A stretch of 61,556 nucleotides of DNA, taken from the NCBI GenBank assembly GCA_905233545.1, contig CAJOEV010000022.1, positions 1-61,556 of the forward strand, in the 5' to 3' direction. The stretch comes from an uncultured Eubacterium sp. (GTDB lineage Bacteria; Bacillota; Clostridia; Oscillospirales; Acutalibacteraceae). The position numbers were made by a program, and so were the translations under genes. Under the pieces are notes generated by a model that worked only from the letters and a program-made list of their open reading frames with translations, had not been told where the DNA came from and searched no databases. Below are positions 45,456 to 51,502 of this stretch, piece after piece (within the stretch, counting starts at the first letter, position 1; the number at the start of each line of letters is the position of its first letter).

Positions 45456-48400
45456 TTATTTCTTAGTTGTAACTGTTTTCTTTGAGCTCCAGGCAGAATA
45501 ATACTTCTTGCCGTTAATCGTCTTATATGCTCTTATACGAACATAATATTTTTTCTTTGCTTTAAGGTTCTTAACGGTTATTGATGTTGATTTATAACCA
45601 CTTACCGTAACAGTCTTGTTGCCCGATTTGAAGCTGCTGCTTGTGCTGTACTGAATCTGATAGCCTCCGATACTTGCAACGGATTTCCATGTTGCTTTGA
45701 ACGATTTCTTGCCTGCGGCCACCTTGCTGAGTGAAGGCGAGCCGAGCTTTGCGACTGTTTTCTTTACTCTGCTCAGCTCTCTTTTACATACCAAACAATA
45801 TACAACACTGTCGTAGGAGCCTTTTTTGCTGAAGGTAGCAGGAACAATGTTTTCTTTTACTGCTGCTTTAGGAGCATGTTCAAGCTTTTTAAGCGTCTTT
45901 CTTTCTCTTGAAAGCTCTTTTGAACATACAGTGCACTTTACAATTTCATCATATGAGCCGTTTGCTGTACATGTGGCAGGAAGAACATTTTCGCGTGTTG
46001 CTTTACCCGGTGTATGACCCGGAGCAATTATTTCCTTAGTCTGTCTTTCAAGCTCCTCAGAGCATACCAAGCAATAAATAACTTCGTCATAAGAACCGTT
46101 GACAGTACAGGTTGCTGCTTTAATATTCTCCTTTTTGGGCTCGGACGGCGAATGATGATGTTCCTGAGCAGCTCTTGATACTATATCAAAATATCCGTAA
46201 ACAGAACCGATATATTCACCGATACCCGTAACAGTTATTCTTCCTTTGCCGATATTTATATTAGAATTGAAGGATACAACATAATCCTTGCCCTGCTCTA
46301 AAACGCTGTTTTCAAAGGTAACCGTTACATTGGGCTCAATCTTTTCACCCGTGAACTCATAGTTTTCATATTCAGTCAGAATAGTTGCGCCGACAAGAGA
46401 TGTACCAATCTTAAAGGTTCCGTTAACTTCCTGTCCTTCAAATCGATTTAGTCCCTTGATAGTGAATGTACCGACTCCCTTATTAATATTTTCACCGTAT
46501 TCTACGGTATAATCCACATCTTCAGCTAAAGTAATGTAGCTGTTATTAACAATTATCCGAGGCTCAATCTGTTCCCCTGTGTATGCGCAATCGGGTGCAA
46601 TTATTCTGAAACTGTCAAGCTCTGGTACAATTTCAAATGTGAGCGTCTTTGAACCGGTAATATCCTCATCTCCGGAAATCGTTACTCGTCCTGTTCCTAC
46701 ATCAATGTTATTAGAGTAATTTACATTATAATCATAAGACGGCACTTCATTATCGTTTAAAAATACATGTACCCGAGGCTTTTGTGCAATTCCGTTATAT
46801 ACCATTTGAGGTTCAATTTCTATTGAGCAATCATTAATGGAGGCTGTACTGATATTATAATACTTGTTTACTGTACCTGTAAATCTTCCTATTCCCCTGA
46901 TAATCGCAGGATAATTATATTTATGGTATTCATAATCATAATAATATCTGGCACTTGTTCCCGAACTCAATACAGGTATTTCGTAATCAACACCTTCTGT
47001 AAGCGTTTCGCCCTCATAAGATACAGTAACTTCAGGCTTTTGGGGCTTTCCGTTATATTTCAGTGACGAAAAACTAACATCAGCTTTTCCTATATCAATC
47101 AGCGTTTCAGTATGTCCTGCAGGAACAACGCTTGAATTCTTTGTGACATTAAGCACAAAGCCGTTGTCCATACTCTCATAGATATAATACTGCTCCCCTT
47201 CAAAGAGAATATTATCGTCAATGCCGTTAAACAGAACACGAATATTTGTGTTTTTCGGAACGCTTATTGTTTCGTTTGTGATACCCTCAACCAGAATATC
47301 GCCGACAAAAACATTTACTGCGTTTTCAAAATTGAAGTCAACTGATACTGTTTCGTACGGACAGTTGACACGGCAGACATCTGAAACCAATGTTTTTTCG
47401 CTGTCTCTGTCATACACCGAGCAATAATAATATCCGCTTTTTTCAGGTAAAAGATTGTATCTGCTTGCTTGAGCTAATTTTTCATAATTGCTTCCGTCCT
47501 CGCTGTAATACCAGCTATAAACAGGATCGGGCGCCATTACGTGAATCTCAATAGAAGGATTATTTTCAGAAAGAGTAATGCTTGCAGGAAGATTCTCAAT
47601 AAAGAGCGGCTCTGAAATACGGTTATATTTTATTTCGTCATTTACAAGCTCAACTGTTATGTTCTCGTTAGCCGAATAAAATGTTTCTCCGTTGCCTACA
47701 TTGATTTTGTCGATTGCTTTAGGAAGAACTATCATTCCGCCATCGAAATACAGCTTACTAAGTTTTGTTATGTTCGGCATATGAACATTAGCGTAGAATT
47801 TTTCCGTTAATGTCACATTAACGAGTGAAGGCAGATTTAATTCCTTCATCGGCGAATTCTCGGGAATATAGCCGATAGTTCCTGTTTCAACATTAGGAGC
47901 AATAAGGTATTTCAACGACTCATCAGATGTAGTAAAAGAAGCGGATTGATTATATCGCCTTATGCTTTTTGCTGCCGAAACATCTATTATTTTCAGATTA
48001 TTTAACGGGCGGTAGCCGCTTATTACAGCGTTTGGAGTTATTATCTCTTCTATTGCCTTAGGATTTATATAATTGCTCCAGTTGTTTGCGGTAAAAACAT
48101 TATAGTCAAGCTTTGTTGCGCTGTAAATAACAAGCTTTTTTAATTTTGGGCAATTTCCAAACATACCGCTGCTTGTTATCTCGGTTAAATAAGGAGCGTA
48201 GAAAGTTTCAAGCGCAGTACAGTTGCGCACGGTCATCAATGTGGTTGAATTATAATCAGAAACCGCTTTCGGCAAGCGAAGCTCTTTCACATAATCATTA
48301 TCCGTAAATCCTATAAAGGTGACAACCTCAGGAAGAACAAGCGTTGTTATATACGGTGAATTAAATCCGCTTTGCGAGTTGAAATATGTAACACTATCAA

Positions 48401-51059
48401 GATTCAGTTCTCTGACATTATTGCATCCCGATATTGCATCTTTACCAATACGTGTTGCATAAGGAAAGGCAATCGTTTCCAGCGAACTGCAATTCTTAAA
48501 TGCTTCGCCGTTAATATTGGTTGCATACTTAAAGCACTCGGGGATTTCTTTGAGCGATGAGCATCCGTTGAAAAAGCCCTGCGGAACATAGTTCATTATC
48601 GGACCGTCATATTCTGAAAGCTTCACGCAATTCATAAACAGATTACTGCCAACCTTTTGCAGTGTGGGAAGAGTCGCCTTTTCAATACCGCACTCTTTAA
48701 ATACCGCGTTGCCAACTTCAATGAGATGGGCAAAAGAAACACTTTTAAGCTCTTTATTTCCCATAAATGCATTATTCCCTGCTTTTTTAAGATTGTCTGC
48801 ATTAACAACGGAAAGCTTATTGTTTGCAAAAGCATAGTTCCCGACTTCGGTAAGCAACGGTGCATTCAGACCGACAATGCTGTTTCCGTAAAACCCGTAT
48901 CCCTCAACGCAAGTAAGATTTTCCTCACATTCAAGGTGCGTAAAACCGCAGTTGTAGAACGCCTGATACGGTATTTCGGTAAGATTAGAAATATCAAGCA
49001 TATCCTCATTGATAAGATGCCTGTTATAAAACGCTCCCTGACTTACACTTAATAACGGAGAAAACTCAATATATTCAAGTTTTTCACTACTGCTTGATAC
49101 ATAAAACGCAAAGTCATCTATGGTTGTAACCCCTCGTGCAATTACAGATTGAAGAGAAGTGCAACCGTAAAATGCTCTGTTTCCGATAAATGTAACAGTA
49201 TCAGGCAACTGAACAGATACAACACTTTTGTTTTTAAAAACATTTGCACCAACGCCAATAACTGTTTGTCCCTGAATTACATCGGGAACAATCAATGCAG
49301 CCATAGAACCCAAATATGATGTGATTATACCGTTATCAATGGTAAAATTGTCTTCACTTTCAAGCCCATTGAAATAATAGTTTGCACGGGTAATTACTGA
49401 CGGAAGCTTACCGCTTTCAAATGCTCTGGCTTTAATCGTAATGTTTTCGGAGATAAGTATTGGCGAAATGTATTCGCTTCCGTTTGTTAATGACGGCACA
49501 GAACCGTCCGTTGTATAAATTATTTTCGCAGAATCGGAAGTACAATTAATGCCAAGATAAAACACATCTTTGTAATACCCGCTTTTAACGCTGAAAATTG
49601 CAGGCGCAGATATCTCTTCCTTAAGCAGTTTTGTAAAGCTGATTATACCTGTACCGTAGTTGCGTCCTTTGTTGTTAACAATGGGCGTAACTGCTTTCTT
49701 CAATGCGCTTTTTATAGCTGATGGCGTATTATGCTCATTCACAATAATATCAACAGCTGCTGCGGCACTAACAAAAGGAGTTGCCATAGATGTACCGCTA
49801 TAAACCATAAATCCGCTTCTTACAGATGAGGTTATATTGGAACCCGGCGCTGCAATATCAACGGCACTTCCGTAATTTGAGAAATAAGACGGCGAACCGT
49901 ACTGATTTGTAGCTGCAACGGTAATGCAATAATTTGAATTTGCCGGGTAGTAATATTTTGTATCATCATCTTCGTTACCTGCAGCCGCGCAGAGTGTAAC
50001 GCCATTGTTATAGGCGTAACTGATTGCATTTTTCAAAACACTTTCAGTCCAGTAGGCATAACCGCCCCAGCTCATATTAATAACAGAAGCACCCTCGTCA
50101 ACGCAATAGCGAATAGCATTGGCAAGTTCGTAATCGTCTCCGTAGCCGTCCTTATCCAAGCCCTTCGCTGCAAGGAGTTTTACATTATCGGGCGTATTGT
50201 CTTTTATAATTCCTGCAACATGGGAGCCGTGTCCTTCCAAATCGTCTGCAGTTTCTTCACTTTTTACAAAGGATTTGCTTTTATCAGATATTCTGTCCTT
50301 TAAAAAGCTGTGGTTAAGCGAAATACCCGTGTCAACAATACCGACAATCACTTCTTTTGTAATGCTTTTTGAAGTGATATATTCACTGCTGATATATGAA
50401 TTAACATAGGAGGCACCCCAGGATTTCTGTTCATTTGAGCGGAAATCATCTGCCGTAAGCTCACTTGACTGATAAACATTGTCGCCAAATACTTTTTTAA
50501 CTCTTTTATCAGATTTCAGCAAAGCATAGGCTTTTTCTGTTGTTTCTTCCGAATCGTAAAACAAAACGACCGCTCCGTCAGGAGAAGTAATTCTTTCAGT
50601 TTCCCCTGTTTTGGGAACATTTGAGGAATAAACGGTGAGGCGTTTCGTCTGAAACGGTTTAACCAGTGCCGTTATATCGCCATTGTTATCGACCTGAGCA
50701 TTTATTGCATCTGCAATATCTTCCAAAGCAGCAAAATCCTCTTCGTTTTTGCTTTTTGTATCAATGTCTTTTTTTGCTTTCTTTGAAAGCTTCATATCGT
50801 CAACGCTGACAAGAGTTTCATCATTTAGAGTTAATGTGTCAATTTTAGTATTGCCCTGTGATGCAGTATCGCCGTCAACAATTACAGGCAAAAAATAATC
50901 TTCTTTTTCATCAGTTGAGCTATTAAGCTTCTCGGCAAACTCAAGCCAGTCCTCCGTGGCCTTCTGCTTTGCATACGATGCAAAAGACCCCACAGGCATA
51001 ACGCCGACTGAAGCTAATATTACTGTTATTGAAAGTAAAAAAGATAATGCTTTTTTCAT
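45456..51059 (-). CDS. Secreted subtilase with leucine-rich repeats and Fn3 domain
   Basis: An 1867-residue extracellular serine protease. Order: signal peptide (1-28); propeptide-like region (to about 200); S8 catalytic domain with D243 (VDTG), H277 (GHGSHVAG) and S424 (GTSMATP); a chitobiase-C-terminal-like domain (about 500-560); a long BspA/LRR_5 region (575-1130); an Ig-like part; three MBG-like beta modules (about 1320-1640); three Cys-x-x-Cys repeats (ATCTVNGSYDEVIYCLVCS type, the third with the first Cys lost); and a C-terminal Fn3 domain. No LPxTG motif is seen. Ribosome-binding site TAGGAG. It probably acts on host or competitor proteins; the target is unknown. Confidence 0.88.
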   Translation of the reverse strand: MKKALSFLLSITVILASVGVMPVGSFASYAKQKATEDWLEFAEKLNSSTDEKEDYFLPVIVDGDTASQGNTKIDTLTLNDETLVSVDDMKLSKKAKKDIDTKSKNEEDFAALEDIADAINAQVDNNGDITALVKPFQTKRLTVYSSNVPKTGETERITSPDGAVVLFYDSEETTEKAYALLKSDKRVKKVFGDNVYQSSELTADDFRSNEQKSWGASYVNSYISSEYITSKSITKEVIVGIVDTGISLNHSFLKDRISDKSKSFVKSEETADDLEGHGSHVAGIIKDNTPDNVKLLAAKGLDKDGYGDDYELANAIRYCVDEGASVINMSWGGYAYWTESVLKNAISYAYNNGVTLCAAAGNEDDDTKYYYPANSNYCITVAATNQYGSPSYFSNYGSAVDIAAPGSNITSSVRSGFMVYSGTSMATPFVSAAAAVDIIVNEHNTPSAIKSALKKAVTPIVNNKGRNYGTGIISFTKLLKEEISAPAIFSVKSGYYKDVFYLGINCTSDSAKIIYTTDGSVPSLTNGSEYISPILISENITIKARAFESGKLPSVITRANYYFNGLESEDNFTIDNGIITSYLGSMAALIVPDVIQGQTVIGVGANVFKNKSVVSVQLPDTVTFIGNRAFYGCTSLQSVIARGVTTIDDFAFYVSSSSEKLEYIEFSPLLSVSQGAFYNRHLINEDMLDISNLTEIPYQAFYNCGFTHLECEENLTCVEGYGFYGNSIVGLNAPLLTEVGNYAFANNKLSVVNADNLKKAGNNAFMGNKELKSVSFAHLIEVGNAVFKECGIEKATLPTLQKVGSNLFMNCVKLSEYDGPIMNYVPQGFFNGCSSLKEIPECFKYATNINGEAFKNCSSLETIAFPYATRIGKDAISGCNNVRELNLDSVTYFNSQSGFNSPYITTLVLPEVVTFIGFTDNDYVKELRLPKAVSDYNSTTLMTVRNCTALETFYAPYLTEITSSGMFGNCPKLKKLVIYSATKLDYNVFTANNWSNYINPKAIEEIITPNAVISGYRPLNNLKIIDVSAAKSIRRYNQSASFTTSDESLKYLIAPNVETGTIGYIPENSPMKELNLPSLVNVTLTEKFYANVHMPNITKLSKLYFDGGMIVLPKAIDKINVGNGETFYSANENITVELVNDEIKYNRISEPLFIENLPASITLSENNPSIEIHVMAPDPVYSWYYSEDGSNYEKLAQASRYNLLPEKSGYYYCSVYDRDSEKTLVSDVCRVNCPYETVSVDFNFENAVNVFVGDILVEGITNETISVPKNTNIRVLFNGIDDNILFEGEQYYIYESMDNGFVLNVTKNSSVVPAGHTETLIDIGKADVSFSSLKYNGKPQKPEVTVSYEGETLTEGVDYEIPVLSSGTSARYYYDYEYHKYNYPAIIRGIGRFTGTVNKYYNISTASINDCSIEIEPQMVYNGIAQKPRVHVFLNDNEVPSYDYNVNYSNNIDVGTGRVTISGDEDITGSKTLTFEIVPELDSFRIIAPDCAYTGEQIEPRIIVNNSYITLAEDVDYTVEYGENINKGVGTFTIKGLNRFEGQEVNGTFKIGTSLVGATILTEYENYEFTGEKIEPNVTVTFENSVLEQGKDYVVSFNSNINIGKGRITVTGIGEYIGSVYGYFDIVSRAAQEHHHSPSEPKKENIKAATCTVNGSYDEVIYCLVCSEELERQTKEIIAPGHTPGKATRENVLPATCTANGSYDEIVKCTVCSKELSRERKTLKKLEHAPKAAVKENIVPATFSKKGSYDSVVYCLVCKRELSRVKKTVAKLGSPSLSKVAAGKKSFKATWKSVASIGGYQIQYSTSSSFKSGNKTVTVSGYKSTSITVKNLKAKKKYYVRIRAYKTINGKKYYSAWSSKKTVTTKK

Positions 51060-51169: not shown

Positions 51170-51198
51170 ATTATATTGCAAAGCAATATGTATATCAA
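51170..51198 (-). promoter_or_regulatory. Sigma-A promoter of the subtilase gene
   Basis: Minus-strand TTGATA (51198-51193), 17-nt spacer and TATAAT (51175-51170), with a leader of about 100 nt. Confidence 0.8.
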
Positions 51199-51249: not shown

Positions 51250-51277
51250 AAAAAAGTGCGCAGCAAAAGCCACGCAC
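51250..51277 (-). terminator. Terminator of the predicted small RNA
   Basis: Minus-strand stem GTGCGTGGC/GCTGCGCAC (two wobble pairs) with TTTT loop, then six T. Confidence 0.75.
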
Positions 51278-51425
51278 AAAAAACGCATAGCTCAACTGTC
51301 GCCAAACAAACTAACAAATCGCCATTACAACGGTATGCTAATAAAGAGTATGCATTTTTATCAAAACAGATAAAAATAACATACCGCACAAAATGGCATA
51401 ATATTCACTTGTTAGTTTATTTGGC
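51250..51425 (-). ncRNA. Predicted structured small RNA, about 176 nt
   Basis: A self-contained unit between pfkA and the subtilase gene. The predicted start point coincides with the 5' arm of a nested hairpin. Its stems are 51409-51425 with 51301-51317 (17 bp, one G-U only when read on the minus strand), 51392-51397 with 51321-51326, 51380-51386 with 51331-51337, and 51369-51377 with 51354-51362. A terminator follows. No ORF fits. It could be a regulatory RNA; a miniature inverted-repeat element is the alternative. It does not clearly match 6S RNA. Confidence 0.55.
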
Positions 51426-51431
51426 AATTTC

Positions 51432-51460
51432 ATTTTACCATTTATCATAATACAAGTCAA
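51432..51460 (-). promoter_or_regulatory. Promoter of the predicted small RNA
   Basis: Minus-strand TTGACT (51460-51455), 17-nt spacer ending TGG (extended minus-10), TAAAAT (51437-51432). The start point should be near 51425. Confidence 0.65.
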
Positions 51461-51461
51461 C

Positions 51462-51502
51462 AAAAAAGACCATACAGGAGCAACTAACTCTTGTATGGTC
51501 TT
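51462..51502 (-). terminator. Terminator of pfkA
   Basis: Minus-strand stem AAGACCATACA/TGTATGGTCTT, then TTTTTTG, 60 bp after the pfkA stop. Confidence 0.92.

Follow-up and report, generated by a model that had tools for sequence, protein, structure and literature searches.

Between pfkA and a gene for a secreted subtilase with BspA-type leucine-rich repeats (minus strand, 45456..51059), an uncultured Eubacterium sp. carries a segment that appears to have both a promoter and a terminator of its own, and this raises the question of whether it is an isolated small RNA gene, as a sequence-only reading of the locus had proposed, or the leader of a gene. The window is the whole stretch of 61,556 nucleotides that was analysed (contig CAJOEV010000022.1 of assembly GCA_905233545.1), and the features described for it lie on the minus strand unless stated otherwise.

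Predicted layout of the unit at the pfkA–subtilase locus

The promoter proposed earlier was found, with a -35 box TTGACT (51455..51460; located by promoter scan) and, after a 17-nt spacer, an extended -10 element TGG TAAAAT (51432..51440), from which transcription is predicted to start near 51425. A single promoter-like match alone is weak evidence, and 16 such matches were found in 3 kb of this region versus 7.6 expected. A further promoter-like sequence, TTGGCA-16-TATCAT, lies inside the element on the opposite (plus) strand (51421-51448). The upstream border of the unit is the pfkA terminator (51461..51502), present just upstream as had been described, with a hairpin at 51466-51502 and a T-run that abuts the -35 box.

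The transcript is predicted to form a nested hairpin spanning roughly 51427 to 51299, and for the 181-nt RNA 51430-51250 the fold has a z of -7.9, none of 200 shuffles being equally stable, which agrees with the hairpin that had been proposed to begin at the predicted start. The G-U pair noticed earlier in the outer stem also appears in the fold, and the element is read as structured at the level of RNA. Fold and compensatory changes define the 5' strand of P1 (51407..51427), which begins approximately at the predicted transcript start. In the internal loop between P1 and P2, the 5' side bears a conserved AAUA (51402..51405; 87-93% conserved in the set A2 described below), after which comes the 5' strand of P2 (51392..51398; fold). 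Strand A, GCGGTATGT, is the 5' strand of P3 (51379..51387), with B or X as its partner according to swap tests. Next come the 5' arm of P3a (51369..51378, including TTTTTATC; fold and covariation alignment) and strand X, GATAAAAATGCATACTC (51346..51362), which comprises the 3' arm of P3a and the apical bulge and which, judging by duplex energies and covariation, could pair with A or Y. The rod is completed by strand B, GCATACCGT, the 3' strand of P3 (51330..51338; swap test), and by the 3' strands of P2 and P1 with GTTTGGC inside (51299..51326; fold and compensatory changes). Behind it lie the linker GACAGTT (51294..51300), whose first bases are able to extend P1, and strand Y, GAGCTATGCGTTTTT (51279..51293), for which duplex energies, swap tests and covariation suggest X or the 5' arm of the terminator as partner. 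The unit ends in an intrinsic terminator, again as first proposed, with a hairpin of arms T5 and T3 (51256..51277; T5:T3 swap test z -20) and a U-tract (51250..51255). The subtilase gene starts 191 nt behind this terminator and has a second promoter-like site ahead of it, TTGATA-17-TATAAT (51170..51198, 11 of 12 matches); because of this distance and this separate site, the window copy could act alone.

Searches for known families

The sequence-only reading had recognised no known family, and a cmscan of the window against Rfam 15 at gathering score likewise gave no match; eight sub-threshold matches in the window stretch were all far below their gathering scores, and in 20 loci with copies the only Rfam matches were four tRNAs elsewhere in the loci. 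The window copy had no BLAST match in plasmid and phage collections. A phage or plasmid origin was rejected, as the window copy was without match there and the one viral contig with the short pattern showed no model match at an E of 1e-5.

No description of the element was found in the openly licensed literature searched (passages of PMC11109978 and PMC8040213 included), and a word search of PMC8632094 for six terms was negative. PMC8040213 reports 3161 candidate structured RNAs from human microbiomes, of which 508 lie no more than 25 bp ahead of a gene; that large set and the element are alike in being intergenic structured RNAs of the gut, and fragments of the family may sit among its unnamed candidates.

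Copies of the element in Clostridia

A search of genomes, going beyond the single sequence of the earlier reading, revealed that the element is multi-copy. The genome of origin holds 7 copies by BLAST and 8 by covariance model. Thirty copies went into the model R1, without the diverged copies L005 and L007 of this genome and the partly matched loci L032-L035. Within the genus, R1 matched 55 of 63 genomes, with 237 matches and a maximum of 34 in genome G085, 131 of 395 genomes and 74 of 172 genera of the order, where copies are undercounted since at most seven candidates were scored per genome, and 79 of 393 genomes and 47 of 220 genera of the class. In a phylum-wide draw it matched 2 of 398 genomes, the genome of origin, which is counted in all four tallies, and G108 from the same family.

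A short-pattern scan of named contigs yielded at least 116 stretches. Of these, 115 were compared with R1 (L146, titled Rhizobium, was left out), and 106 matched. The nine others (L052, L062, L063, L071, L079, L099, L103, L117 and L126), whose titles include Listeria, Diaphorobacter, Prescottella and Rhizorhapis, were regarded as sites that fit the short pattern by chance. Matching records are mainly metagenome assemblies titled Clostridia, Clostridiales, Oscillospiraceae, Ruminococcaceae or Eubacterium, many from ruminants; three from one assembly (L044, L068, L096) are titled Bacteroides. Eight weak opposite-strand matches on copies (27-32 bits) were excluded, and 244 matches were reduced to 212 distinct copies, 19 of which are directly followed by another copy. 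Tandem arrays include four leaders in a row at L234 (G007:C60) and three at L235 (G088:C2). In genome G024, contigs C3, C9, C19 and C28 (first ~170 bases) each begin just behind a leader copy, suggesting that the downstream sequence is repeated in that genome. Beside pfkA in relatives, nothing above 15 bits was detected in eight stretches (L261-L268, of which two span just 428 and 1098 bases), and the window copy therefore seems specific to its locus or species.

Conservation of the promoter and covariation of the stems

In 129 of 143 copies the -10 element starts at a fixed distance from the hairpin. A promoter match at 9 or more of the 12 bases was likewise obtained for 129 of 143 copies, compared with 42 of 429 random stretches. 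The register of the promoter seen in the window is kept across most of the family. When seven gaps between tandem copies were scored, the best promoter was in the family register in six, all gaps of 30-70 nt, the exception being L041. The predicted promoter is part of the unit.

Two-sided changes were found by RNAalifold in 19 of 30 pairs for the first 30 copies (A1) and in 32 of 45 pairs for 96 distinct copies (A2). In A2, compensatory cells numbered 504 versus 144 after shuffling, 97.2% of cells were paired versus 32-51% when one strand was slid, and the covariation score was 0.392 versus 0.179 for shuffled and 0.03-0.06 for slid alignments. The arms of homologues diverge with abundant compensation, and on this point the sequence-only reading withstood the check that it had set itself. 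Because the loci of A2 had been picked with GTTTGGCGACAGTTG(N)AGC as search pattern, the invariance of the P1 3' end, the linker and the first Y bases in this set reflects how the loci were chosen; beyond AAUA, X, Y and the linker, conservation of unpaired bases is small. The terminator folds with -8 kcal/mol or better in 137 of 139 copies.

Position of the copies before genes

In the leader test, a copy had to be followed by a ribosome-binding site (RBS) with at least 5 of 6 matches to AGGAGG and the start of an ORF of at least 40 codons within 75 nt of the terminator. Of the 212 copies, 183 were testable after removal of 19 in tandem and 10 with less than 200 nt downstream, and 113 of them passed with a median start distance of 20 nt, compared with 5 of 154 on the divergent side and 24 of 810 random positions. 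Since an RBS and a start lie within 75 nt in these 113 copies, and since in 84 of the 183 the start codon is 15-24 nt behind the terminator, the element is usually the 5' leader of a gene. The other 70 copies, including that of the window, failed; in some of the failures (L002, L030, L036, L076) a start codon behind a weaker RBS was seen by eye, whereas the window copy is a genuine failure. Of the isolated small RNA gene first proposed, promoter, terminator and RNA-level structure stand; isolation from the neighbours is possible for the window copy and others and is not seen in the 113, where a gene start lies directly behind.

The 143 copies of A2 and A3 yielded 125 downstream proteins, which were cut at 330 residues; 124 were scanned against Pfam after one overlapping duplicate had been dropped. 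Among the best 25 of 50 families, LRR_5 (18 proteins), LRR_8 (11) and Zn_Ribbon_1 (7) were followed by AMP-binding (4), DZR (4) and HTH_3 (3), and within these families no common pathway was seen. By a simple hydrophobicity rule applied to proteins of at least 150 residues, signal- or anchor-like N-termini occur in 59 of 88 distinct downstream proteins versus 57 of 232 other ORFs of the same loci. The downstream proteins are enriched for predicted export signals.

Alternative helices within the leader

The apical strand X (GATAAAAATGCATGCTC type) is complementary to strand Y (GAGCTATGCGTTTTT type), which follows directly on the rod. Of 143 copies, 140 were usable, and their X:Y duplexes had a mean energy of -13.5. 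Swapping Y between copies gave -11.3, none of 300 swaps doing equally well, and shuffling Y gave -5.4. The model to which A2 was aligned does not contain this helix; in that set 96.7% of X:Y cells are paired, two-sided changes occur at 5 of 9 pairs, and one pair is GC in 59 copies and AU in 28.

Swap tests with 136 copies of A2 and A3 gave z values of -25 for A:B, -20 for T5:T3, -13 for X:Y, -9.8 for A:X and -3.1 for Y:T5, whereas six non-partner combinations ranged from -1.6 to +1.8. With relatedness corrected for by clustering only, 86 clusters gave -20, -16, -10.6, -8.4 and -3.7 in the same order of helices, and -1.3 to +1.0 for non-partners. In 68 further copies (A5, 80 matches) the values were -14.5 for A:B, -13.5 for T5:T3, -8.9 for X:Y, -5.6 for A:X and -1.8 for Y:T5, non-partners ranging from -1.8 to +1.0; Y:T5 does not stand out there because its value equals that of the lowest non-partner control. 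A strong Y:T5 duplex, at or below -8 kcal/mol, is predicted for only 31 of 139 copies, and in 51 of 139 the duplex is weaker than -5.

When the segment of Y plus terminator was folded for 135 copies, the mean probability of the terminator was 0.20 with Y free and 0.98 with Y blocked, and 0.96 with shuffled Y and 0.43 with the Y of another copy; with Y free it was below 0.5 in 110 copies and 0.5 or higher in 25. The 68 copies of A5 gave 0.27 with Y free, 0.98 with Y blocked and 0.93 with shuffled Y, and with Y free 49 were below 0.5 and 19 at 0.5 or above. For the window copy the values were 0.16 (free) and 1.00 (blocked). In minimum-energy folds of growing window transcripts, A:X was present at lengths of 82-100 nt, and A:B appeared once 106 nt had been reached. 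Together, the swap tests, terminator probabilities and growing-transcript folds indicate that the predicted order of alternatives is B-A-X-Y-T5-T3. A comparable order of alternative strands exists in known attenuators. The sequence comparisons support mutual exclusion of A:B with X:Y on one side and A:X on the other, and fold energies support a predicted exclusion between anti-terminator and terminator, for which covariation of Y:T5 is weak or not above controls.

A separate partner acting on X in trans was also sought in the genome of origin and rejected, exact matches occurring only at five copies and a one-mismatch match at a sixth. Two-mismatch matches to the X partner occur at five further places, compared with one for the reversed pattern (G-U pairing not counted).

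Candidate anti-leader segments and paralogues in genome G085

Some leaders of G085 (L134, L212, L216, L217, L219, L222, L223, L225, L227) precede an SD-like site, a short segment complementary to the 3' strand of the rod, the linker and Y, and another terminator. A 17-base motif (at most 4 mismatches) lies within 1500 nt of 10 of the 212 copies, 7 of the 10 in G085, and six G085 motif copies are less than 100 nt from the terminator (L216:421, L217, L219, L222, and L225 twice). Since shuffled motifs give a mean of 2.1 and up to 9 copies, the total of 10 is not significant by itself; the notable point is that most of them fall in a single genome. Four further cases in G085 were found by eye (L134:6929, L212, L223:450, L227:201). 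A pattern search of G085 with at most 3 mismatches hit 33 places versus 15 for the reversed pattern, many of them the leaders themselves. It is possible that these segments are anti-leader RNA made by read-through. Their action in trans is likewise possible, because duplex energies with other leaders often equal those with the own leader and some segments do no better than ordinary downstream sequence. In the same genome, paralogous proteins of 91-94 residues (MTEKTYSYDIEGKDLHEFF...) are encoded directly behind 12 leader copies (L054, L084, L106, L179, L211, L213, L218, L220, L221, L224, L229, L232), as if leader and gene had been duplicated together.

Proposed mechanism and alternative explanations

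With an RBS and start codon behind 113 of 183 copies and far fewer in the controls, most copies look like transcription-attenuating 5' leaders, and the element is probably a portable promoter joined to such a leader. The RNA would start at the base of P1, and strand A would pair first with X. Upon closure of the long rod P1-P2-P3, A would move to B and X would be released, join Y just after the rod in a pseudoknot and so leave T5:T3 to fold, stopping transcription (OFF). If A:X were kept, by a factor holding that hairpin or blocking closure of the rod, Y would stay free and form an anti-terminator with the 5' arm of the terminator, and polymerase would read into the gene (ON). Sequence statistics support the putative promoter, the helices A:B, A:X, X:Y and T5:T3 and the leader position; the predicted Y:T5 is supported by fold energies, hardly by covariation; and we infer the direction of the switch, its timing during transcription and its trigger. 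Such a trigger must be common to many unlinked genes per genome, and it would more likely act on the rod or the apical hairpin, as a protein or a small molecule, than via a leader peptide.

Terminator-controlling riboswitches and orphan riboswitch candidates are also 5' leaders with an intrinsic terminator, in which anti-terminator and anti-anti-terminator strands compete, and they too occur in tandem; the element shares these traits; unlike them, it has no Rfam match, includes a fixed promoter in the unit and precedes genes without a common class. T-boxes and leader-peptide attenuators employ a chain of mutually exclusive helices that ends in a terminator, as the element appears to do, but no Rfam T-box match was obtained, and a leader peptide was rejected, an RBS with a short ORF occurring inside 3 of 212 copies versus 1 of 212 controls. 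In processive antitermination by LoaP/RfaH and put/EAR, an RNA hairpin near the promoter lets polymerase pass a terminator; the element likewise has a hairpin close to its promoter, but its terminator lies directly beside the RNA. Control of the LoaP/RfaH type was rejected, as PF02357 (NusG) is single in 36 of 38 genomes of the genus, the exceptions being G071 with three and G021 with two.

Two of the alternatives amount to naming the trigger of the attenuator. An RNA-binding protein that keeps the AU-rich apical hairpin in place or prevents the rod from closing is possible, if doubtful: covarying stems, the conserved AAUA bulge and the AU hairpin would resemble a protein site more than a ligand pocket, but there is no candidate protein, and a NusG paralogue of the LoaP/RfaH type is unlikely given the PF02357 counts. 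In our judgement a protein is slightly ahead of a small molecule. A riboswitch seems rather unlikely. In it, the choice between A:B and A:X would be made by a metabolite or second messenger bound at the internal loop between P1 and P2 or at the junction of X and P3. Conserved unpaired sequence (AAUA, X, Y, linker) is scarcer than expected of an aptamer, and the downstream genes show no visible common pathway, although the position in cis, the terminator within the unit, the number of leaders (up to 34 in one genome, which would suit a global signal), the tandem copies (19 of 212) and the enrichment for export signals would fit it.

The other two alternatives deny a role in the following gene. 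That each copy is a self-contained gene for a trans-acting small RNA, with incidental genes downstream, is improbable: the unit has its own promoter and terminator, the next copy keeps its promoter in register in six of seven tandem gaps, and the subtilase gene has a separate promoter-like site, but starts 15-24 nt from the terminator in 84 copies leave no room for another promoter, and the switch strands would make sense only with read-through. A mobile or selfish, MITE-like repeat that carries a promoter and has no regulatory role is more improbable still; the multiple copies, the lack of one beside pfkA in the eight stretches of relatives and the copies at G024 contig starts speak for it, and the strong structural constraint, the precise placement before start codons and the unmatched window copy in plasmid and phage collections speak against it.

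In the attenuator reading, a short RNA with promoter and stop signal of its own would switch the following gene on or off; the RNA has no match in Rfam and recurs many times in bacteria of gut and rumen, often before exported proteins. More tentatively, and at somewhat short of an even chance, promoter-attenuator cassettes that are interchangeable and number up to 34 in a genome may serve Clostridia of the gut class-wide, tying varied, largely exported proteins to one signal through a cascade of helices from six strands, with 6-10 leaders in G085 driving short RNAs complementary to the rod 3' strand, linker and Y that might inhibit the whole set in trans by feedback. If the attenuator reading is true, an unnamed class of regulatory RNA would be spread through much of the Clostridia of gut and rumen and would offer a handle on the control of surface and secreted proteins in mostly uncultured bacteria; one leader on many unlinked genes would point to a global signal, and the order of the helices would provide precise mutants.
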